From NCBI GenBank assembly GCA_000961845.1, contig LADZ01000005.1:1-47288 (forward strand): DNA of 47,288 nt. The letters run 5' to 3'. Origin of the DNA: Flavobacteriales bacterium BRH_c54. Its GTDB lineage: Bacteria > Bacteroidota > Bacteroidia > Flavobacteriales_E > Vicingaceae. Of the stretch, positions 6,152 through 44,178 are shown piece by piece. How positions within the stretch are numbered: the first letter of the stretch is position 1; every line of letters begins with the position of its first letter. A program made the translations under genes and the position numbers. Below the pieces are notes generated by a model. The model was not told where the DNA came from and made no database searches. It was given only the letters and a program-made list of their open reading frames with translations.

Positions 6152-7117
6152 ATGACTATTACAGAATTTGCAGAAAAACATTACAAACATTTTAATGCTG
6201 CTACTTTGGTAGATGCCTCTAAAGCGTATATTAAGCACTTAGAAAGCGGACACAAAATGATGATTACCCTTGCCGGAGCAATGAGTACTGCCGAATTGGG
6301 TATTTCTTTGGCTGAAATGATTAGACAAGACAAAGTACAAATCATTACTTGTACGGGAGCTAACTTAGAGGAAGACATTTTTAATTTAGTAGCTCATACT
6401 TTTTACAAAAGAGTGCCTCATTACAGAGATTTATCTCCACAAGATGAACAAGATTTACTAGACCAACATTTCAACAGAGTTACCGATACTTGTATTCCTG
6501 AAGAGGAAGCCATGCGTAGAATTGAAAAACAATTGATTGAGGTGTGGACAAAAGCTAAAAATGAAGGTAAAAGATACTTTCCACACGAATACATTTACCA
6601 ATTGATTAGAAATGGTTCATTAGAACAATACCATGATATTGATCCTAAACACTCTTGGTTGATAGCTGCTGCTGAAAAGAACTTGCCTATTATTGTCCCG
6701 GGCTGGGAAGATTCTACTACAGGAAACATGTTTGCTGCTCACTGCTTAGAAGGTATGTTTGAACCAAGCATTGTAAAATCTGGTATTGAATACATGATGT
6801 ATTTAGCAAAATGGTACCAAGAAAATGCTGTTGACAAAGGAATTGGTTTTTACCAAATTGGCGGTGGTATTGCCGGAGATTTCCCTATTTGTGTAGTGCC
6901 TATGTTACACCAAGATTTACAATTAGATGGAATTCCTTGTTGGAGTTATTTTTGCCAAATTAGTGATTCTACCACCAGTTATGGTTCTTACTCAGGGGCT
7001 GTGCCTAATGAAAAAATTACTTGGGGGAAACTAGAAGTAGATACTCCAAAATTTGTAATTGAATCGGATGCTTCTATTGTAGCTCCACTGATGTTCCAGA
7101 TTATTTTAGAAGCTTAA
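6152..7117 (+). CDS. Deoxyhypusine synthase-like protein, probable polyamine (homospermidine/spermidine-type) synthase
   Basis: The 321-residue protein belongs to the DHS superfamily. These NAD-dependent enzymes transfer an aminobutyl group from spermidine or putrescine. The catalytic Lys that forms the enzyme-imine intermediate is conserved in the ITWGKLEV motif (K293), and NAD-site stretches such as TLAGAMSTAELG and IVPGWEDSTTGNMF are present. Bacteria lack eIF5A, so the eukaryotic reaction cannot apply. The cyanobacterial homologue SpeY makes homospermidine, and the position just downstream of arginine decarboxylase supports a polyamine role here. The ATG start agrees with the family N-terminus. 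A strong terminator follows 20 bp after the stop. Confidence 0.85.
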   Translation: MTITEFAEKHYKHFNAATLVDASKAYIKHLESGHKMMITLAGAMSTAELGISLAEMIRQDKVQIITCTGANLEEDIFNLVAHTFYKRVPHYRDLSPQDEQDLLDQHFNRVTDTCIPEEEAMRRIEKQLIEVWTKAKNEGKRYFPHEYIYQLIRNGSLEQYHDIDPKHSWLIAAAEKNLPIIVPGWEDSTTGNMFAAHCLEGMFEPSIVKSGIEYMMYLAKWYQENAVDKGIGFYQIGGGIAGDFPICVVPMLHQDLQLDGIPCWSYFCQISDSTTSYGSYSGAVPNEKITWGKLEVDTPKFVIESDASIVAPLMFQIILEA

Positions 7118-7135
7118 TAATTGCTTAACAACGAT

Positions 7136-7173
7136 AAACAACAAAGCCCGCAGAAATGTGGGCTTTGTTGTTT
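7136..7173 (+). terminator. Rho-independent terminator after the DHS-like gene
   Basis: A stem of about 17 bp (AACAACAAAGCCCGCA...TGTGGGCTTTGTTGTT) closes on a GAAA tetraloop with a single G-T wobble. It begins about 18 bp after the DHS-like stop codon. The downstream T-run is short (TTT) but the stem is very stable. It marks the end of the polyamine transcript and the left boundary of the cassette-like block. Confidence 0.85.
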
Positions 7174-7277
7174 GGTTTCAGTATTAATATGCTAGTGGAT
7201 AAATAGAGCTTAGAAAATTCTAGGCTTAGTGAGAAGTTGTTTTTATAGATAACTACAGAAAATTAAACTGTTATAAA

Positions 7278-7431
7278 TACCAACAACTTACAAAATAGTA
7301 AAAGTCCTTTTAATGATTTGTAAGGTTTTTAGTATATTTGAATAAATTATAAAACGAAACCTGAGCTTCGCTTATACAACTAAATTTAGATGTATAAGCG
7401 AAAGTTTATATCGGGTATATACAAGTTGGCA
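7278..7431 (+). other. Possible attC-like site 1 (left edge of cassette block)
   Basis: The candidate runs from TACCAAC (7278-7284) to GTTGGCA (7425-7431). The two ends match as inverse-core/core at 6 of 7 positions. Inside is a perfect 12-bp inverted repeat, TTCGCTTATACA at 7367-7378 and TGTATAAGCGAA at 7391-7402, with a 12-nt loop. Base pairing next to the ends is weak, so this is the least certain of the four sites. The rest of the 328-bp gene-free gap from 7118 holds only the terminator and AT-rich sequence. Confidence 0.25.
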
Positions 7432-7445
7432 ACAATTAAAACAAC

Positions 7446-8171
7446 ATGAGATTACTTTTCTGCATATTTATTATTTCACTTTTACTCGGCTCATGCAATT
7501 CAGGGGCTACAGGAGATAAAATTGAACTTCAAATTGAGAATTCTGAAAGCCAAAAAAGTCACCCCGATGCCTCAATGCAACCGACAGACACTTTTAGTAT
7601 TTACTTAGACACATTAAATCAAATTGAACAGAAAAGTTTAAACTCTGAGGCATTTAAATTTTCTCAGTTTTATGATAGCGAGAATTCTCACAATTTAATC
7701 TATCATGAAACAGGAAAAATCAAGATTGAAGATAAACAATATGGACTCTCGATTTTTTCTATAAACGACACTACGATTAGTGTTAAACTTCTAAAAAAGC
7801 ATCTCTCAAAATGGATTACTTGTGACTCTATCAATCTTTATGATATCCGCTTCTCACCAGCGATGTTCAATCCAGTTTACTCAGACTTTAATCAAAATAG
7901 TGTAAATGATATTTTGCTCATCTTTTATCAGTCTATGAGTGTTGCATATAACTATGGGTATCTTGTCCTATTCTCAAAGGAAACTGAAAAACTGATTCTA
8001 TTACAAAACTCAATAGACATACCTAATTTAGAAGTTTTAAATAAAAAAATTGTTTCAATAACACGTAATCACCCTGGACATGAACCAAAGGAGTATACAA
8101 AAACAGACGAATATGAAATCTCAGAAAATCAATTATTGCTTGTAAACTCAAATAAAAAATATAAAAAATAG
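7446..8171 (+). CDS. Putative lipoprotein of unknown function
   Basis: The 241-residue product starts with a lipoprotein signal: MRLLFCIFIISLLLGSC, with the lipobox LLGSC placing the acylated Cys at residue 17. It would be anchored in the inner or outer membrane facing the periplasm. The mature region is polar, with one Asp/Asn-rich stretch (YSDFNQNSVNDILLIFY near residue 145) that resembles FG-GAP/VCBS-like 'D-x-N-x-D' turns, but I cannot assign a family. The stop codon runs directly into the palindrome at 8170-8301. It is the first gene of the cassette-like block, and the ATG is at 7446. Confidence 0.65.
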   Translation: MRLLFCIFIISLLLGSCNSGATGDKIELQIENSESQKSHPDASMQPTDTFSIYLDTLNQIEQKSLNSEAFKFSQFYDSENSHNLIYHETGKIKIEDKQYGLSIFSINDTTISVKLLKKHLSKWITCDSINLYDIRFSPAMFNPVYSDFNQNSVNDILLIFYQSMSVAYNYGYLVLFSKETEKLILLQNSIDIPNLEVLNKKIVSITRNHPGHEPKEYTKTDEYEISENQLLLVNSNKKYKK

Positions 8172-8301
8172 CTAACAGCGTATATAACTTATGGCGGGGA
8201 AAGTGATAAATTTAGGTTTGGTACTTTTAAATAAGTTTGGTGCATGCCGACAGGAAAGTGCTTGGAAAACCGCCACAAGTCATATACGCAAACCGTTACC
8301 A
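8170..8301 (+). other. attC-like imperfect palindrome (site 2)
   Basis: This 132-bp intergenic element begins with AGCTAAC (8170-8176), overlapping the lipoprotein stop, and ends with GTTACCA (8295-8301). The arms are long and imperfectly complementary: TAACAGCGTATATAACTTAT then GGCGG on the left (8173-8197), and the complement CCGCC...CATATACGC...GTTA on the right (8270-8298), with unpaired bases on one arm. Size, TAAC/GTTA ends and asymmetric bulges fit integron attC sites. It sits 13 bp before the next start codon. Confidence 0.5.
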
Positions 8302-8314
8302 TTAATTAAACAGA

Positions 8315-9061
8315 ATGAATAAAGGATTACTCATTATATTCAATCTTCTAATTTCGATAAATATTTCTTATTCACAAGAAAGTAGATTAGATGTAACAGA
8401 TAGATTTTTAGCGTCTAATTTTAAGACATTTTATTCTGTTGATACTGAATTAGGATATTGCATGGCTCCAATTATCGAAGAAAGGGTCGTAACTGAACTT
8501 AAAGATTCAACGAGCTTCAATTATTCATACGATAGCTTATCGAGCTACATTAAAATAAGAACTTCAGAGGATAGCTTAATTAGAACATTTAGTTGGGATA
8601 GAAGAAGTGGAGGAAGTTGGCATGGCATGGCATCATATGCTCAATTCAAATCAAAATCGGGAAAGATAAATCACCAAAGACTTGATTCAGGAGATGAGGG
8701 CGGTACAGGTGAACCTACAGATGTATTAATTTATGATATTCATACAATTAATATCGAAAACAATTCATACTATTTGATGCTCGGATGGGGGACTCATGGA
8801 GGTGGCCAACATCATTCCCTAGCTAGGGTTTATAAAATAAATGGAGAAACACTAACTCTTTGTGATTCCATTTTTCAAGGACTGAAATATCTATTAGTAA
8901 GTGCGAATCGAGCAAATAAAATTGAACTTGAATATGACACGGAATTAATGACCATATCATATTACCGATATGAGTTTGACGAGAATACTGGGTTTTATAA
9001 AAGAGAAGGAATAAAAGAAAAATGGATTTTGAATGGTGGTATTTTTATTAAAAGTAACTAA
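8315..9061 (+). CDS. Secreted protein of unknown function
   Basis: The 248-residue protein starts MNKGLLIIFNLLISINISYSQES, a typical signal peptide cleaved near SYS-Q, so it should be periplasmic or secreted. The body has a Gly/His-rich motif (GWGTHGGGQHHSLARVY near residue 157) preceded by a VLIYDIHTINIENNSYYLML strand pattern, suggestive of a beta-rich fold. I do not recognise the family. The gene fills one complete cassette-like unit: it starts 13 bp after site 2 and its stop adjoins site 3. No T9SS C-terminal domain is present. Confidence 0.65.
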   Translation: MNKGLLIIFNLLISINISYSQESRLDVTDRFLASNFKTFYSVDTELGYCMAPIIEERVVTELKDSTSFNYSYDSLSSYIKIRTSEDSLIRTFSWDRRSGGSWHGMASYAQFKSKSGKINHQRLDSGDEGGTGEPTDVLIYDIHTINIENNSYYLMLGWGTHGGGQHHSLARVYKINGETLTLCDSIFQGLKYLLVSANRANKIELEYDTELMTISYYRYEFDENTGFYKREGIKEKWILNGGIFIKSN

Positions 9062-9193
9062 TGGTAACACTGTATATAGCAAATAGGCAAAATAGCAATA
9101 AAATCAATGTTTTTGGCTGGTATAAAACTTCGTGCATAGCTAAAAGTTTCGTGCTTCGTAATCGCCTACTTTTCATAGCCAAACACGTTGTGC
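9062..9193 (+). other. attC-like imperfect palindrome (site 3)
   Basis: The element is 132 bp, the same length as site 2, and runs from TGGTAAC (9062-9068) to GTTGTGC (9187-9193). The arms pair imperfectly: AAC-ACTGTATATAGCAAATAGGC on the left against the complement of GCCTACTTTTCATAGCC then AAACACGTT on the right. The left end TGGTAAC is the exact complement of GTTACCA, the right end of site 2. This is the relation expected when a cassette's own core and inverse core meet in its circular form. Confidence 0.55.
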
Positions 9194-9226
9194 AATCTTA
9201 ACGAACAACCGAAATAGAAGTAAAAT

Positions 9227-9754
9227 ATGACATTTGACAACTTTACAATCAGACTTTTGAATATTGAAGATTTGGACGCTTATTTCCATCTCGTTGAACG
9301 AAACCGGGAACGACTTGCAGACTTTTTTACCGGAACAGTTTCAAAAACAAAAACATTTGAAGATACACAGGGATTTTTATTAGATATTGTTCAACGCATT
9401 AAAGACAAAACTTATTTTCCATACATCATCCTTGACGGTTCAAACCAAAGAATAGCAGGCTTCATGGACTTGAAAAATATTGATTGGAACATTCCAAAAT
9501 CTGAAATGGGGCTCTACATTGATAAAGACTATGCCAATCAAGGAATTTCAACAAAGTCTTTTAGCCTATTTTGTGATTTTTGCTTTACTGAATACAAATT
9601 CCAAAAGCTGTTTTTAAGAACACATCATAACAACACATTTGCAAGGCGTGTTGCCGAAAAATGCGGATTTGAGATAGAAGGAACTATCAGGCGGGATTAT
9701 AAGACCACTTCTGGAGAAGTTGTTGACTTGATTTATTACGGAAGAATAAATTAG
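9227..9754 (+). CDS. GNAT-family N-acetyltransferase (RimJ/RimL type)
   Basis: The 175-residue protein has the GNAT layout of RimJ/RimL-like enzymes. The N-terminus is FTIRLLNIEDLDAYFHLV, followed by a central acetyl-CoA-binding strand and loop (EMGLYIDKDYANQGISTKSF, the Q-x-x-G-x-A-type loop here read as ANQGIST). The C-terminal part is RVAEKCGFEIEGTIRRD, the conserved 'N-x-x-S/A-x-x-V-x-E-K-x-G-F' block. Such enzymes acetylate protein N-termini or small amines in the cytoplasm. Acetyltransferases are frequent integron cargo. The ATG lies 34 bp after site 3, and a methyltransferase remnant follows 13 bp downstream. Confidence 0.88.
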   Translation: MTFDNFTIRLLNIEDLDAYFHLVERNRERLADFFTGTVSKTKTFEDTQGFLLDIVQRIKDKTYFPYIILDGSNQRIAGFMDLKNIDWNIPKSEMGLYIDKDYANQGISTKSFSLFCDFCFTEYKFQKLFLRTHHNNTFARRVAEKCGFEIEGTIRRDYKTTSGEVVDLIYYGRIN

Positions 9755-9767
9755 AAAACAAGACAAA

Positions 9768-10198
9768 ATGCAAGAGACTAAATACGACAAAATAGGAACT
9801 GGATATAATTCAACTAGACAGACTGCCCCTTACTTGACCGAAAGACTTCTGTATCACTTGCAAACACAAAATGACAGGCTTTATCTTGACATTGGCTGCG
9901 GAACGGGAAATTACAGATATTGAAAAATATTTTATCAAAGACGACCTTCAAGACTGTTTTTTATATGTTGGGAAAAATAATCCAAACCGCTACTTTGACG
10001 AAACAATCCGACACGAAATTTCATCGTTTTCATCATTAACAAACATTGAAGAAGTGAAACAAGGTTTATCAAAACTCAAAAATGACATAGACAACCAATC
10101 GTTTGACAAAATTAAAAGACCAATATGCAAACGAATTAGGCGACTACTTATTTATAACAATTGACAAAAAAGCAGCACATAACCGCGGTTTGGCTTAA
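9768..10198 (+). pseudogene. Class I SAM-dependent methyltransferase remnant (internal deletion plus frameshift)
   Basis: The ATG at 9768 starts MQETKYDKIGTGYNSTRQTA and reaches the SAM-binding motif LDIGCGTGNY, then stops at 9923. The C-terminal part continues in another frame (from about 9910: DIEKYFIKDDLQDCFLYVG...). A second shift of one base in an A-run near 10114 is needed to reach DQYANELGDYLFITIDKKAA and a stop at 10198. About 100 residues between motif I and the C-terminal region are missing compared with a ~250-residue methyltransferase. The remaining open frame at 9871-10164 is therefore not an independent gene. The 3' end runs into the palindrome at 10177. Confidence 0.8.
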
Positions 10199-10307
10199 TG
10201 GGGGCTAACGTTCTTCATATGAACATTCTTGCTAAATTTGAACTGTTTGCTTCATGTCAGGTGTTGTACTGAAAGCCCACACTACGCCAAGCCGCAAAAC
10301 GTTGAGT
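10177..10307 (+). other. attC-like imperfect palindrome (site 4)
   Basis: The element is 131 bp, from ACATAAC (10177-10183) to GTTGAGT (10301-10307). The left arm AACCGCGGTTTGGCTTAATG pairs with the complement of CACTACGCCAAGCCGC then AAAACGTT (13 of 16 core positions), and GGGGCT pairs further in with AGCCC. It overlaps the last codons of the methyltransferase remnant, as is usual for cassette genes. Downstream to 10490 there is only a short hairpin (CAAGCG-TGGT-CGCTTG, 10342-10357) and AT-rich sequence without a gene. Confidence 0.5.
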
Positions 10308-10490
10308 ATAGTTTCATGCAAGTAACCCTATATTAAAACTCCAAGCGTGGTCGCTTGAAGTAGTGGAGGCTAACTTAATCAATGTTTATCTGTCAAATCA
10401 GCGTTATTCGTATTCTATTAAACCAGATTTTCGATAATTTTTCCGTTGCACTCCTAAATTTCGGGAATGACGTAAAGATGGAGATTGGTT

Positions 10491-11027
10491 TTATTCGAGT
10501 ATTCTCTCCATCTGCTTTATATGTCGCTCATTGTGGAAAATAACAAAACGAAAAGTATCTCCTAGTTTAATTGTTAGCCATTGGGCGATACTTACCTTCA
10601 CTTTTACTTTGTTTAAGCTTACATTGTTTGCTTTTTGCAATAGTTCCAACAATTGTGTTTGTTGTTCCAAAAAAACGCTTATTACCGAGTTATCTAAATT
10701 GCTATTTAAAGGATTTTTATCCTTAAAGGTTTTCATCTTGTTTAGCTTCTCTTTGGGAAGCATACTATTTGCAAAATAATTGCCCAACCAACCGCTTTTA
10801 AAAGTCGCTTCACTTGTTGTGTTGGAAGTGGTTATGGCTTTTTCTATCTCAGGGATATAATAATCGCCATATCGGTTTAAATGCTCTAAACATTCTAAAA
10901 CATTCCAGCTTTCGGGTGATTTTCTGTGAGTAAGCACCTCCTGAGGTAGGTGTTCTATTGATTTAACATAATTGATGTGTTGTTCAGTTTTAGCTGCTAA
11001 TTCCTGTAGTAATGTTGCTGATTTCAT
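10491..11027 (-). CDS. DinB-like four-helix-bundle protein
   Basis: The product resembles the DinB_2 superfamily of putative metal-dependent thiol transferases. Visible features are a helical start (MKSATLLQELAAKTEQHINY), the family 'SPESWNVLECLEHLNRY' motif with a candidate metal His, and the C-terminal 'FHNERHIKQMERIL' motif carrying two more His. The three-His pattern suggests a bound divalent metal. I chose the ATG at 11027 over the TTG at 11048, which would add seven Lys-rich residues. It is the last gene of an apparent operon with the Crp/Fnr gene (58 bp upstream) and a membrane protein. The substrate is unknown. Confidence 0.75.
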   Translation of the reverse strand: MKSATLLQELAAKTEQHINYVKSIEHLPQEVLTHRKSPESWNVLECLEHLNRYGDYYIPEIEKAITTSNTTSEATFKSGWLGNYFANSMLPKEKLNKMKTFKDKNPLNSNLDNSVISVFLEQQTQLLELLQKANNVSLNKVKVKVSIAQWLTIKLGDTFRFVIFHNERHIKQMERILE

Positions 11028-11085
11028 TGTCTTCTGTTTTTTAGACAAAATTGCTCTCTTTTCCCTTTATAAAAATTGATTGAAA

Positions 11086-13213: not shown

Positions 13214-13600
13214 ATGAGTTACTACTATACAAAGATTACTGATTATGGTTTTGATGAAGCCATAGAAAAAGTTACCGAAGAATTACAAAAAGAAGGTTTT
13301 GGCGTGCTTACCGAAATTGATGTTACTGCTACTTTTAAAAAAAAAATTAATGTTGATTTTAGACCTTATCGAATTTTAGGAGCATGTAACCCTCATTTTG
13401 CTCATCAGGCGATACAAGCCGAAGAGAAAATAGGTACTATGCTACCCTGTAATGTAATTGTCCAGCAATTAGATAATGGAAAAGTAGAAGTATCAGCAGT
13501 TAACCCAATGGCTTCTATGATGGCTGTAAAAAATGATGCCTTAGAAGATATTGCCACGCAAGTAAGTAATAAACTAGAAAACGTAATAAAACAACTTTAA
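13214..13600 (+). CDS. DUF302 domain protein
   Basis: The 128-residue protein is a single DUF302 domain. Recognisable parts are YYYTKITDYGFDEAIEKVTEEL, the GFGVLTEIDVTATFKKKINVDF strand pair, the YRILGACNPHFAHQAI motif, and the IGTMLPCNVIVQQ core. The fold is an alpha/beta swapped dimer; the conserved Cys in LGACNP and LPCNV may bind a ligand or sulfur species. The biochemical role of the family is unknown. It starts a tight operon with two rhodanese genes (12 bp, then 3 bp gaps), which argues for a part in sulfane-sulfur or thiol handling. Confidence 0.88.
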   Translation: MSYYYTKITDYGFDEAIEKVTEELQKEGFGVLTEIDVTATFKKKINVDFRPYRILGACNPHFAHQAIQAEEKIGTMLPCNVIVQQLDNGKVEVSAVNPMASMMAVKNDALEDIATQVSNKLENVIKQL

Positions 13601-13612
13601 AACCCAACTGCT

Positions 13613-13900
13613 ATGAACATCGAGCAATTAATTTCAGAAAATAAAGGTACCATTATAGACGTACGTACCCCTGAAGAATTTATGTCAGGAAATCCTGTAG
13701 GTTCTATCAATATTCCGCTACAAGAGGTAGTAAGCAGAATAGACGAAGTAAAAAGCTTACCTCAACCATTAATTTTATGTTGTGCCTCCGGTAACCGAAG
13801 TGGCATGGTAGAACAATTTTTATCTCAAAACGGTATTGAATGTTGTAATGCCGGTTCTTGGTTAGATGTAAATTATTATCAATCTAAAAACGTTAAATAA
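13613..13900 (+). CDS. Single-domain rhodanese
   Basis: The 95-residue protein is one rhodanese domain: TIIDVRTPEEFMSGNPVGSI at the N-terminus and the active-site loop CCASGNRSG, whose catalytic Cys starts the six-residue CASGNR loop. Such proteins carry a persulfide and transfer sulfane sulfur in the cytoplasm; there is no signal peptide. A second Cys adjoins the catalytic one and two more occur near the end (IECCNAGSW). It sits between the DUF302 gene and a second rhodanese. Confidence 0.92.
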   Translation: MNIEQLISENKGTIIDVRTPEEFMSGNPVGSINIPLQEVVSRIDEVKSLPQPLILCCASGNRSGMVEQFLSQNGIECCNAGSWLDVNYYQSKNVK

Positions 13901-13903
13901 GTT

Positions 13904-14218
13904 ATGCTAAATACATTAAAACAGTTGTTGGGCTTCGGCCCGGCAACAGATTATGCTGATTTAATCAGGCAAAATGCCATTATTCTTGATGTAAGAACAA
14001 AAAATGAATTTAAATCGGGCAACATTAAAAAATCTATTAACATTCCTGTAGATGTATTACATAATAACTTAAAACACCTTAAAGATAAAAACAGACCCAT
14101 TATTACTTGCTGTGCTTCCGGAGCAAGAAGTGCTATGGCAAAACGTATTTTAAAATCGCAAGGTTATACACAAGTTTATAATGGCGGTGGTTGGCATAGG
14201 TTGCAGTCTAAAATTTAA
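13904..14218 (+). CDS. Single-domain rhodanese (second copy)
   Basis: The 104-residue protein is a rhodanese domain with a 15-residue N-terminal extension (MLNTLKQLLGFGPATDY). The motif NAIILDVRTKNEFKSGNIKK and the active-site loop CCASGARSAM are intact, with the catalytic Cys in CASGAR. It ends in YNGGGWHRLQ. It is diverged from, but clearly related to, the preceding gene, from which it is separated by 3 bp, so it looks like an old tandem duplication. The downstream neighbour miaA is convergent. Confidence 0.92.
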   Translation: MLNTLKQLLGFGPATDYADLIRQNAIILDVRTKNEFKSGNIKKSINIPVDVLHNNLKHLKDKNRPIITCCASGARSAMAKRILKSQGYTQVYNGGGWHRLQSKI

Positions 14219-20403: not shown

Positions 20404-22308
20404 TTACCTAAGCAATGTAACCGAGCCTTTAATAAATTCTCTTTTTCCTCCTAAAAAAGTGACATCAATCAAGTAAAAATAAGTACCTGTTGGCACAACA
20501 CTTCCTTGATAAGTTCCATCCCAACCTTCATTTATTTCTTTCCATGAAAACAACTGCTCTCCCCACCTATTAAAAATAGTTGCTTCAAAAAAATCAAATT
20601 CACTTCCTTTTATCATAAAGACATCATTATTATTATCATTATTAGGCGTAAAAGTATTTGGAACAAAAATAGTTGGCACTAAACATTCGTCTCTAGTAAT
20701 TCCTATTTGATCTTCAGATAAACACCCATTATCCATTGATGTAACGGTATAAATTCCTTCGGTAAAAACAATTATAGAATCAACTCCTGTTTCTCCTGAA
20801 CTCCAAACTAAATTAGCTCCTCCAACCGCATTTATAATAAAACCTGTTAGTAATTCATCTCTGCAAATCGTAATGTTATTTTGCACTATATTCACTTGGC
20901 TCGTTGCAATAATAGTTAAGTTGGTTTCAACAATACTATCACATCCTAAGGAAGTGGTAAGTATATCTGTATAAATCCCAGTTGAGGCATAAACATTCCC
21001 TCCAACAGTTATACTAAATCCAGGACATTCAGTAAAACTTTGAGAGCTAAATTTGGTAGGATTGATGTTTAACGTAGTTGTAATAATGCTGTCACAACCT
21101 GCACTGCTTCCGCCAACAAGTGTGTCTATATAATTTCCAGCTGTAGTTTGAAAAACTCCTCCTAACAAAATACTATCCCCTTGACAAATTGAAATACTTG
21201 TTGAACCTGTGGTAAAATTATTTATCGCAAGGTTAGTGGTAATTATACTGTCACAACCTGATGCTGCTCCACCAATAAGTGTGTCAATATATGTTCCTTG
21301 TGTATTTACCTGACTTCCTCCCGGTAAGGTATAACTTTGTCCTTGACAGATACTTGCATTTTGAGTAGCAGTAGCTGGTGGATTAATAGTAATTAAAATA
21401 CTATCCGTAATAGTTCCACAAGCTGCCGAACCTTCTACATAAATATAAAAATTTGATGTATCGTTTATTGAAGAAGAATAAGTAGTGTTATTGCTAGTTG
21501 TTGAGCTAAAAGATCCATTACCACCGCTCCAAAGTAAATTTTGTAGTGAACTACTAGCATTTACTGTTAATTGAACATTATCTCCCGGACAAATATTAGT
21601 TGGTGACAACGCAGTAATACTAACATTAGCAGGAACAAAAGGGGCTTGACAAGCAAAATTATCATACGTTGCATTACCTTGCCAATCGAAATTAGCTAAT
21701 GCTCCATCTCTTATTGCTGAAGCTCCACCAATAGTTCCGTTTTGATTAACCAATAATGTTCTATCATAGGTAACTACATCCGAACAGCCACTTGGCGATG
21801 AAAACGAAATAGATAAGGTTCTCATTCCAGGAGAAGTACTCCAATTAGCAAAATGCCCTGAGGTGTTTCCCGCACATTGAAAAATAACGTACATCGTATC
21901 AGCCAAATTGGCAAAAGAATTGGCATTTACATCAATAGCGGTACTTGTTATAAGCAATACTCTAACTCCTGCCGGTAAAATACCATTAGTTGGTTCGAGT
22001 AATAATCCGCATCCCTGTACGGTAGCATTTAAAGCACTAACAGCATTTGCTGTAGTAATATTCTGACAAATGTTTAACCAAGGATTGGTCGAGTTTGGCC
22101 AACTCACATTCATATTGGCAACATTAAGAGGAGTATTACCCACAACAAAACGAACCATTTCATTTTCTCCTTCAGGAGAACCACAGGCGTCTACAAGGAT
22201 ACTTTCTATTTCGAAACAGGTGGTTGGAATTTGTGCTTTAACATGTAAAGCCAGAAGAATTATTGTTATTAAAAATAAAGTTTTTAATCCATTAACTTTA
22301 AAAATCAT
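20404..22308 (-). CDS. T9SS type B / gliding-motility-associated C-terminal domain protein
   Basis: The 634-residue secreted protein starts with a signal peptide (LFLITIILLALHVKAQ). Its N-terminal domain (IESILVDACGSPEGENEMVRF...) is common in Bacteroidota adhesin-like proteins. Then come three ~60-residue repeats with the pattern C-x-G/GG-x-Y-x-DTL-x-GCDSI-x-T-x-L-x-I (roughly residues 320-470). It ends with a CHU_C type B sorting domain (VPNTFTPNNDNNNDVF...FNRWGEQLFSWKE...GWDGTYQGSVVPTGTYFYLIDV). This domain targets proteins through T9SS and is typical of large adhesins. Likely an extracellular surface protein. Confidence 0.9.
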   Translation of the reverse strand: MIFKVNGLKTLFLITIILLALHVKAQIPTTCFEIESILVDACGSPEGENEMVRFVVGNTPLNVANMNVSWPNSTNPWLNICQNITTANAVSALNATVQGCGLLLEPTNGILPAGVRVLLITSTAIDVNANSFANLADTMYVIFQCAGNTSGHFANWSTSPGMRTLSISFSSPSGCSDVVTYDRTLLVNQNGTIGGASAIRDGALANFDWQGNATYDNFACQAPFVPANVSITALSPTNICPGDNVQLTVNASSSLQNLLWSGGNGSFSSTTSNNTTYSSSINDTSNFYIYVEGSAACGTITDSILITINPPATATQNASICQGQSYTLPGGSQVNTQGTYIDTLIGGAASGCDSIITTNLAINNFTTGSTSISICQGDSILLGGVFQTTAGNYIDTLVGGSSAGCDSIITTTLNINPTKFSSQSFTECPGFSITVGGNVYASTGIYTDILTTSLGCDSIVETNLTIIATSQVNIVQNNITICRDELLTGFIINAVGGANLVWSSGETGVDSIIVFTEGIYTVTSMDNGCLSEDQIGITRDECLVPTIFVPNTFTPNNDNNNDVFMIKGSEFDFFEATIFNRWGEQLFSWKEINEGWDGTYQGSVVPTGTYFYLIDVTFLGGKREFIKGSVTLLR

Positions 22309-43042: not shown

Positions 43043-44178
43043 GTGATTTAAAATTTCAACAATGTAGCAAAACAGTAATGGATAATATTGCTGATCCATA
43101 CATCACTTTTGATGAGAAAGGAATTTGTAATTATTACTATGAATATTTTGAATTAGAAAAAAAACATGTAAAAAAAGGAGAAGAAGGAAAGGTTTTTTTT
43201 AATCAAAAAATAAATACTATCAAAGAGTCTGGAAAAAACAAACCATATGATTGCATTTTAGGTTTAAGTGGGGGAGTTGACAGTTCTTATTTAGCTTATT
43301 TAGCAAAAAAAGAAGGATTAAAACCTCTAATAGTACATTTTGATAATGGTTGGAATTCTGAATTAGCCGTTAAAAACATTGAAAATATTGTTTCCATTTT
43401 AGGTTTCGACTTATACACGTATGTTATTAATTGGGAAGAATTTCGTGATTTGCAGATTGCCTATTTAAAAGCATCTGTAATTGATATTGAAGCTATTACC
43501 GACCATGCGATTAGAGCCACATTGTTTAAATTAGCAGCCAAACATAAAATCAATTACTTTTTAAGTGGATTTAACATTGTGACTGAAGCTATTTTACCAA
43601 AGGCATGGGTTTTTAATAAATCTGATGCTAAGAATATTAAAGATATTCATAAAAAATTTGGTACCATACCTTTAAAAACCTTTCCCTTCTTAACTGCTTT
43701 TGACAAGCGCTATTATTCTATGGCATTGAAAATAGAATCTGTTCCTTTATTAAATTATATTGAGTATAATAAAGAAAAAGTTAAAGAGATTTTAATAAAG
43801 GAATTAAACTGGAAAGATTATGGTGGTAAGCACTACGAATCAGTTTGGACAAGATTTTATCAAGGATATATTTTACCCGAAAAATTTAAGGTAGATAAAC
43901 GTAAAGCTCACCTTTCTACCCTTATTTGTTCTGGTCAAATTACAAAAGAAAAAGCTTTAGAAGAACTAAATCAACCTATTTATGATAAAGAACAGTTAAT
44001 TATTGATAAAGAGTTTGTTTTAAAAAAATTAGATTTAGATGAAAGTAGTTTTAACCAACTAATGAAACTACCGATTAGAAAACATACAGATTTTGAAACA
44101 GAATCTTATTCTTTTTTTGATAAATATCCTTTATTAAAGCCTTTTAAAGGAATTTATAATACTATTAAAAAGAAATAA
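43039..44178 (+). CDS. N-acetyl sugar amidotransferase (WbpG-like), altered N-terminal Cys motif
   Basis: The 379-residue protein is an adenylating sugar amidotransferase of the WbpG group. The PP-loop SGGVDSS is at residues 77-83, followed by LIVHFDNGWNSELAVKNI and FFLSGFNIVTEAILP-type segments. The N-terminal Zn-binding pair in relatives is CxxC...CxxC; here it reads QCSKTVMD (C9, T12) and GICNYYYE (C30, Y33), so the second Cys of each pair is lost. It needs ammonia from HisH/HisF-like partners, which are at 16546-17932. The product would be an acetamidino sugar. Gene overlaps FkbM by 4 nt. Confidence 0.88.
   Translation: MSDLKFQQCSKTVMDNIADPYITFDEKGICNYYYEYFELEKKHVKKGEEGKVFFNQKINTIKESGKNKPYDCILGLSGGVDSSYLAYLAKKEGLKPLIVHFDNGWNSELAVKNIENIVSILGFDLYTYVINWEEFRDLQIAYLKASVIDIEAITDHAIRATLFKLAAKHKINYFLSGFNIVTEAILPKAWVFNKSDAKNIKDIHKKFGTIPLKTFPFLTAFDKRYYSMALKIESVPLLNYIEYNKEKVKEILIKELNWKDYGGKHYESVWTRFYQGYILPEKFKVDKRKAHLSTLICSGQITKEKALEELNQPIYDKEQLIIDKEFVLKKLDLDESSFNQLMKLPIRKHTDFETESYSFFDKYPLLKPFKGIYNTIKKK

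Follow-up and report, generated by a model that had tools for sequence, protein, structure and literature searches.

Positions 7278 to 10307 of a 47,288-nucleotide (nt) stretch from Flavobacteriales bacterium BRH_c54 (contig LADZ01000005.1, positions 1 to 47,288, forward strand; this whole stretch is called the window) harbor a block of genes separated by long imperfect palindromes. Judged from sequence comparisons, this block probably belongs to an integron-type system as a satellite array of gene cassettes, on which a recombinase that is encoded on contig C28 of the same genome and lacks the I2 insertion of integron integrases (IntI) likely acts in trans. In the proposed mechanism, the attI copy at 7278-7427 would receive cassettes, each consisting of about one gene and one attC site of about 132 bp. 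The likely enzyme would be the tyrosine recombinase of C28, a protein of 377 amino acids without the IntI-specific I2. The bottom strand of attC would fold into a hairpin and recombine at its GTT core with attI or another attC; cassettes would therefore insert in one orientation.

A covariance model, R1, was built from 24 bottom-strand sites of other genomes; none was taken from this genome, which avoids circularity. Scanning of the window with R1 identified three palindromes (S1 to S3), all on the minus (bottom) strand, and the next best match in the window scored 13.2 bits. The palindromes have lengths of 132, 132, and 131 bp, start with xxxxAAC and end with GTTxxxx, exactly as proposed in a preliminary description of this DNA; R1 recognized them as attC sites with R'' and R' boxes in an imperfect palindrome. 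The preliminary description had named the absence of any covariance-model match as evidence against attC sites, and this objection fails with a purpose-built model. The block contains the following features.

7278 to 7427, plus strand: solo attI copy, ending at the GTT core 7425-7427 (attI profile, E = 3.3e-17)
7279 to 7323, plus strand: integrase-gene remnant from the 3' end (TNNLQNSKSPFNDL, stop codon), compared with the C28 integrase C-terminus TKNLQNIKSPFDDL
7446 to 8171, plus strand: cassette 1, open reading frame for a 241-amino acid protein with a lipoprotein-like N-terminus
8170 to 8301, minus strand (bottom strand presumed functional): attC-like site S1 (R1 match 8164-8307, 96.3 bits, E = 8.9e-24)
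8315 to 9061, plus strand: cassette 2, open reading frame for a 248-amino acid protein
9062 to 9193, minus strand: attC-like site S2 (R1 match 9056-9199, 42.6 bits, E = 2e-9)
9227 to 9754, plus strand: cassette 3, GNAT acetyltransferase of 175 amino acids (PF13302, 67 bits)
9768 to 10164, plus strand: decayed rest of cassette 3, with an N-terminal methyltransferase fragment (9768-9923) and an overlapping open reading frame (9871-10164); methyltransferase matches below cut-off
10177 to 10307, minus strand: attC-like site S3, final site of the array (R1 match 10171-10313, 78.1 bits, E = 6.4e-19)

The clearest anatomical evidence in the window is provided by cassette 2, the ends of which (8295-8308 and 9055-9068) show complementarity in 13 of 14 bases; this is what R' and R'' stemming from one circular cassette should show. 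S2 was accepted because of this complementarity and its R1 match, not because of its folding alone. Three co-oriented units had been described; the third is partly decayed, with the methyltransferase fragment behind the GNAT gene. Sites had been placed directly after stop codons with an ATG soon downstream. S1 indeed overlaps and S2 abuts a stop codon, but S3 begins 12 bp past one, and behind S3 no plus-strand open reading frame of annotated size was found, the next clear gene being a minus-strand DinB-family gene.

The attI profile was built from 57 integrase loci, and its E-values relate to the set of loci searched. It also matched the C28 region (E = 1.3e-20) and, weakly, C29 (1.2e-4) and C57 (1.3e-3). 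Positions 7278-7427 align with the stretch just behind the C28 recombinase gene and with a stretch that precedes another cassette on C57. A possible fourth palindromic site had been suggested at 7278-7431; R1 gave no match there up to E = 5, and the stretch turned out to be the solo attI copy. Isolated integrase 3' ends were found at G027:C1:28200-28388 and 43144-43332, G048:C31:33256-33459, and G051:C25:13333-13629. Because such ends occur elsewhere and the window copy carries one as well, attI copies bearing an integrase-gene tail appear to seed satellite arrays. The attI profile additionally matched at loci L064 and L077.

The candidate integrase (C28:253-1386, minus strand) carries a Phage_integrase domain (147.8 bits) and a Phage_int_SAM_4 domain; two further, shorter Xer-like proteins are encoded on C50 and C21. 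No protein of the genome, a draft of 69 contigs with 95.24% completeness, reached the IntI cut-off. The suggested genome-wide search for an IntI-type recombinase and additional sites thus yielded the sites, 16 in number, and an I2-less candidate in place of IntI. Likewise, the statement that no integrase is present holds for the window but not for the genome, where a recombinase gene lies on C28 next to an attI of its own. The best NCBIfam match of this protein was NF040815, 'site-specific tyrosine recombinase/integron integrase' (223.6 bits, cut-off 220). Against the IntI model TIGR02249 it scored 214.1 bits (cut-off 265); profile positions 179-236 were skipped, with 17 residues in their place. 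I2, an insertion of about 40 residues located past the first catalytic arginine motif and ahead of HxxR, defines IntI in surveys (PMC9668308, PMC2426708). In our alignment, this insertion was present in 18 of 18 IntI and in none of the 25 family members that were aligned out of 83 extracted; 20 I2-type loci had been fetched, of which L181, L184, and L185 gave no protein under the length filter. All 32 further relatives had the same short span of 96-101 residues and hence no I2 insertion. The IntI-specific additional domain was therefore not found in the family integrases.

A predicted structure of a Flavobacterium homologue (mean predicted local distance difference test score 82.5, predicted template modelling score 0.51) had XerA, XerH, and the integron integrase 2a3v as its nearest folds (Z 23.4, 20.1, and 20.1; root-mean-square deviation 12.9, 4.7, and 5.5 over 257, 253, and 259 aligned residues). 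The model places a small strand-strand-helix-strand-strand region ahead of the core, a part which the structural-neighbor list (VIA-align) hardly probes. Plasmid-borne tyrosine recombinases of Klebsiella, Aeromonas, and Acinetobacter (H10-H20, one of which is named TnpF) are 49-51% identical to the C28 protein in its catalytic part, and 47 weaker, partial matches to the integrase were obtained from phage records.

The family shows the integron plan at many loci. A scan of named species genomes was used, and 80 loci were kept out of 498 relatives among the matches listed; the hosts among these matches are Flavobacterium, Pedobacter, Cyclobacterium, and many Bacteroidota metagenome bins, with the bins of L145 and L150 named otherwise. 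An attI-like core lies downstream of the integrase gene at C28. Such a core was also found in 58 of the 71 family loci whose sequence extends 140 nt or more past the stop codon, as compared to 35 of 1592 control windows; in 49 of these 58 loci it is located 92-109 nt behind the stop. Within the 80 loci, 81 sites were detected downstream on the coding strand, seven on the other strand, and none in upstream control stretches, which were at most as long as the downstream ones. The coding-strand sites are mostly 130-136 bp long (69/81). In many loci, attI is followed by different genes with sites of about 132 bp between them; readable arrays include L071, L072, and L097 with ten sites.

Furthermore, cassette ends match in these arrays. 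In 27 of 32 loci, all four bases of the R' after attI are matched by the reverse complement of the first R'' (permuted mean 2.2, maximum 9), and the same match from site to next site was found in 25 of 45 cases (permuted mean 2.9, maximum 9). R' and R'' of one and the same site agree in only 7 of 81. Complementarity of cassette start and cassette end is a property of family loci; in the window, it is clear for cassette 2 only. The 3' side of the integrase gene often lies at a contig end in draft genomes (within about 260 bp in G000:C28, G024:C31, G035:C98, G048:C132, G050:C16, and G051:C24), and arrays are therefore probably under-counted.

A second type of I2-less integrase was noticed at L053, L057, L059, L078, L080, L081, and L082. 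There, the gene is followed within about 100 nt by a near-perfect, attI-like palindrome and a GTT, and then by different genes; L081 has attC-like sites of about 52 bp at 7241 and 8931. At the GC-rich I2-less locus L079 (G044:C3), the attI-like end GTTATGGGTC is matched by GACCCATAAC at the first site.

Xer-like recombination on double-stranded sites by the same system, with the palindrome as an inverted pair of binding sites, is an unlikely alternative. It would agree with the missing I2 helix, with XerA and XerH among the nearest solved folds, and with attI regions that are themselves palindromic. The 24 model sites speak against it: standard pairs occupy 551 of 576 cells on the bottom strand and 493 on the top strand, and G.T wobbles occur 63 times on the bottom strand versus five times on the top. 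Of the 24 sites, 22 have G.T at two particular positions and 13 have it at a third; on the top strand, these are A.C mismatches. This bias was not selected for, because the site detector scored the top strand. Additionally, four or five bases beside the R box are unpaired on the arm opposite R''-L'', forming a one-sided loop; the extra bases on one arm noted in the preliminary description are real. G.T pairs confined to the bottom strand, together with this loop, therefore point to selection on one folded strand. Covariation with changes on both sides was found for 18 of 24 pairs.

In classical attC sites, extrahelical bases on the R''-L'' arm are described as directing strand choice (PMC2727003) and as being docked by I2 (PMC7790495). 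No conserved bulge was present on that arm in the 24 model sites. In the BRH_c54 genome, 13 of 16 sites had a readable stem, and one of them (L230) carried a bulge on the R''-L'' arm; the boxes of L235 and L236 were misplaced, and for L233, which is S2, only an inner stem was obtained. Classical attC sites were sought at 20 I2-type loci and R751; chained sites were found only at L180, an I2-type locus of the phylum, where two sites were each read on both strands, and both have two single-base bulges on the R''-L'' arm. The pairing of a missing I2 with missing extrahelical bases is attractive, with one locus serving as control and a detector gap penalty that disfavors bulged sites.

The preliminary description had classified the block as a cluster of attC sites lacking an integrase (CALIN). 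Three sites and no recombinase reading frame in the block satisfy this term, yet an attI copy is present, and a satellite array probably served in trans fits better. A plain CALIN would mean that the sites were left behind by, or picked up from, ordinary integrons whose I2-containing IntI was lost, resides in other cells or was missed in the assembly, and that the I2-less recombinase is unrelated. We regard this as improbable. It would account for the window without an integrase, for sites spread over ten contigs, for genomes such as G043 that are rich in sites without a close integrase, and for the abundance of I2-type IntI in the other phylum classes (over cut-off in 84 of 296 sampled genomes). 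Among the genomes with such IntI matches, however, only G095 belongs to this class; the I2-less genes themselves are accompanied by attI and by arrays with cassette ends matching it, and the attI copy in the window is the attI of the I2-less family.

The occurrence of sites was compared with that of the integrase in 60 genomes, this one and its relatives. At E = 0.01, R1 found at least one site in 54 of them and up to 51 per genome. The median number of sites was 11.5 in genomes with a close I2-less integrase (n = 16), 4.5 with distant family members (n = 22), and 2.0 with at most Xer-like matches (n = 22; close versus Xer-like, one-sided p = 5.7e-5). The 16 sites of BRH_c54 lie on ten contigs. 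The end of its contig C15 and the start of C48 are identical over 518 bp that carry one attC site; the 16 sites may therefore be 15. A cassette duplication considered for this pair was dropped, since the identical stretch lies at two contig ends. In the phylum sample, 75 of 296 genomes matched an I2-less query at E = 1e-55.

The same locus, flanked in the window by the two genes listed here, was examined in five congeners (G001 to G005).

6152 to 7117, plus strand: left flank, deoxyhypusine-synthase-like gene, conserved in five congeners
10491 to 11048, minus strand: right flank, DinB-family gene (Pfam match), adjoining the left flank gene in G002

The left flank gene was found in all five congeners. 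In G002, the DinB gene follows it directly, and nothing of the block 7234-10486 is present. G004 carries an attI remnant there, together with a single, different cassette and the same right flank; read by eye, the site of this cassette has the ends GTTAGGC and GCCTAAC. Positions 10308-10486 are non-cassette sequence common to the window and G004. G001 and G003 have other sequence at the locus without an R1 match at E = 0.01, and the G005 contig ends about 255 bases behind the left flank gene. The empty locus of G002 carries ten bases, CGTTGAGTAT, which also occur at window positions 10300-10309 behind the final site; this single case suggests an insertion at a GTT. Dispersed intergenic palindromes (a repeat family or terminators) unrelated to site-specific recombination, the alternative given in the preliminary description, would explain the many singletons across the genome but are hardly credible in view of the orientation and clustering behind integrases, the matching ends, attI, the empty locus, and the changed content. 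The palindromes do not stay between the same neighbors in related strains, as fixed syntenic repeats would, and the integron-type reading given there is borne out.

Several observations weigh against a satellite array served by the I2-less recombinase. The ends of cassettes 1 and 3 are complementary at near-chance level (8/14 and 7/14, with the fixed GTT counted). Folding of the bottom strand alone, a check proposed earlier, was better than 200 shuffles for S1 (z = -2.81, 2/200), but S2 (z = 0.68) did not fold significantly better and S3 (z = -1.17) gave no clear result, likewise short of significance. Overall pairing and covariation of the model sites are inflated, because the detector picks sites with complementary arms. 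Six of the 60 genomes have no R1 site at E = 0.01, and G040 (20 sites) and G043 (19 sites) are without a close full-length family integrase. R1 does not match the G004 site at E = 0.01, and G004 has a cassette at the locus, yet no family integrase at E = 1e-36 or better. Finally, an I2-type IntI could be missing from the BRH_c54 assembly, given its draft state.

The system resembles sedentary chromosomal integrons in the attI by the integrase gene, the cassette arrays, the AAC/GTT R boxes, the complementary ends, and the bottom-strand fold. Four features set it apart from them: an integrase without I2, an R''-L'' arm that is free of extrahelical bases in most sites, an attI located downstream of the integrase gene, about 100 nt from its 3' end, and solo attI copies with an integrase tail at other places in the genome. 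The array would work like an integron but is not one by the accepted definition, because the domain that defines integron integrases is absent from the likely enzyme and most of the sites are devoid of extrahelical bases. With a CALIN, the window array shares the three sites without an integrase; it differs in opening with an attI copy and in the candidate integrase encoded elsewhere in the genome. The name XerA/NF040815 applies to the C28 protein as its best NCBIfam match, and NCBI gives it to a Chryseobacterium plasmid homologue (H2). It is, however, a name from automatic annotation with which no description of attI, attC, or missing insertion was found, and the family has an extra N-terminal region.

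We provisionally consider the I2-less integron-type system to be novel. Among the open-licence papers of PubMed Central that were searched, titles and abstracts described neither I2-less integrons nor integrons widespread in Bacteroidia. Standard surveys require the IntI-specific domain, and the I2-less family would therefore not be counted as integron integrase. For Bacteroidetes proper, the IntegronFinder 2.0 account lists a single complete integron, that of Salinibacter ruber, along with In0 elements (PMC9024848), while 54 of the 60 genomes searched here have one or more of the attC-like sites. A natural I2-less system points to an extensive pool of cassettes, little mapped as yet, across a major phylum.

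In a tree of 82 sequences, from which the short family proteins L255 and L274 were left out, the 18 I2-type IntI formed one clade (support 100) and the 52 I2-less proteins another (Shimodaira-Hasegawa-like approximate likelihood ratio test 72.6, FastTree 0.87). The root was set by 12 XerC/D-like proteins of Bacteroidota, and the sister status rests on that root. An earlier tree of 65 sequences had put IntI inside the I2-less group, next to L079, with weak support (66.9/76); an origin of IntI within the I2-less group was dropped, because this group is monophyletic with 82 sequences. A sister relation is compatible both with a shared integron ancestor that preceded I2 and with a loss of I2, and the data favor neither.

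According to the standard account, the I2 helix enabled single-strand cassette recombination, and deletion of I2 abolishes IntI1 function (PMC7790495); the same study notes its own lack of a phylogenetically inferred ancestor. We tentatively propose, as a possibility somewhat short of even, that recombination of folded bottom-strand attC needs no I2, and that complete attI/attC/cassette systems are driven in Bacteroidota by a large sister clade of IntI without I2. This clade would have a site code of its own, in which a one-sided loop and G.T wobbles in place of extrahelical bases would direct strand choice. If the sister relation is true, cassette recombination may predate I2, contrary to the view that acquisition of I2 opened single-strand recombination. 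A natural I2-less system would make the question of I2 origin directly testable.

The cassette proteins and the surroundings of the array were also searched. The cassette 1 protein matched no Pfam family over cut-off, and its NCBIfam match to XAC2610_fam (21.5 bits) was below the cut-off of 35. For the cassette 2 protein, neither a Pfam or NCBIfam match nor a homologue at E = 1e-8 in 59 other genomes was found. With PADLOC, the only defence-family match among the cassette proteins was a weak one (14 bits) of the methyltransferase fragment. Rfam yielded for 6800-11000 only three weak matches below gathering score, to leader families, all on the hairpin region 7106-7281. A terminator-like hairpin with 17-bp arms is located at 7136-7173 behind the gene 6152-7117, the deoxyhypusine-synthase-like product of which matches PF01916 with 136.9 bits and is 97-100% identical across the five congeners. 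Elsewhere in the window, a DUF302 gene followed by two rhodanese-like genes lies at 13214-14218, and a protein of 634 amino acids with a CHU_C type IX secretion signal domain is encoded at 20404-22308.

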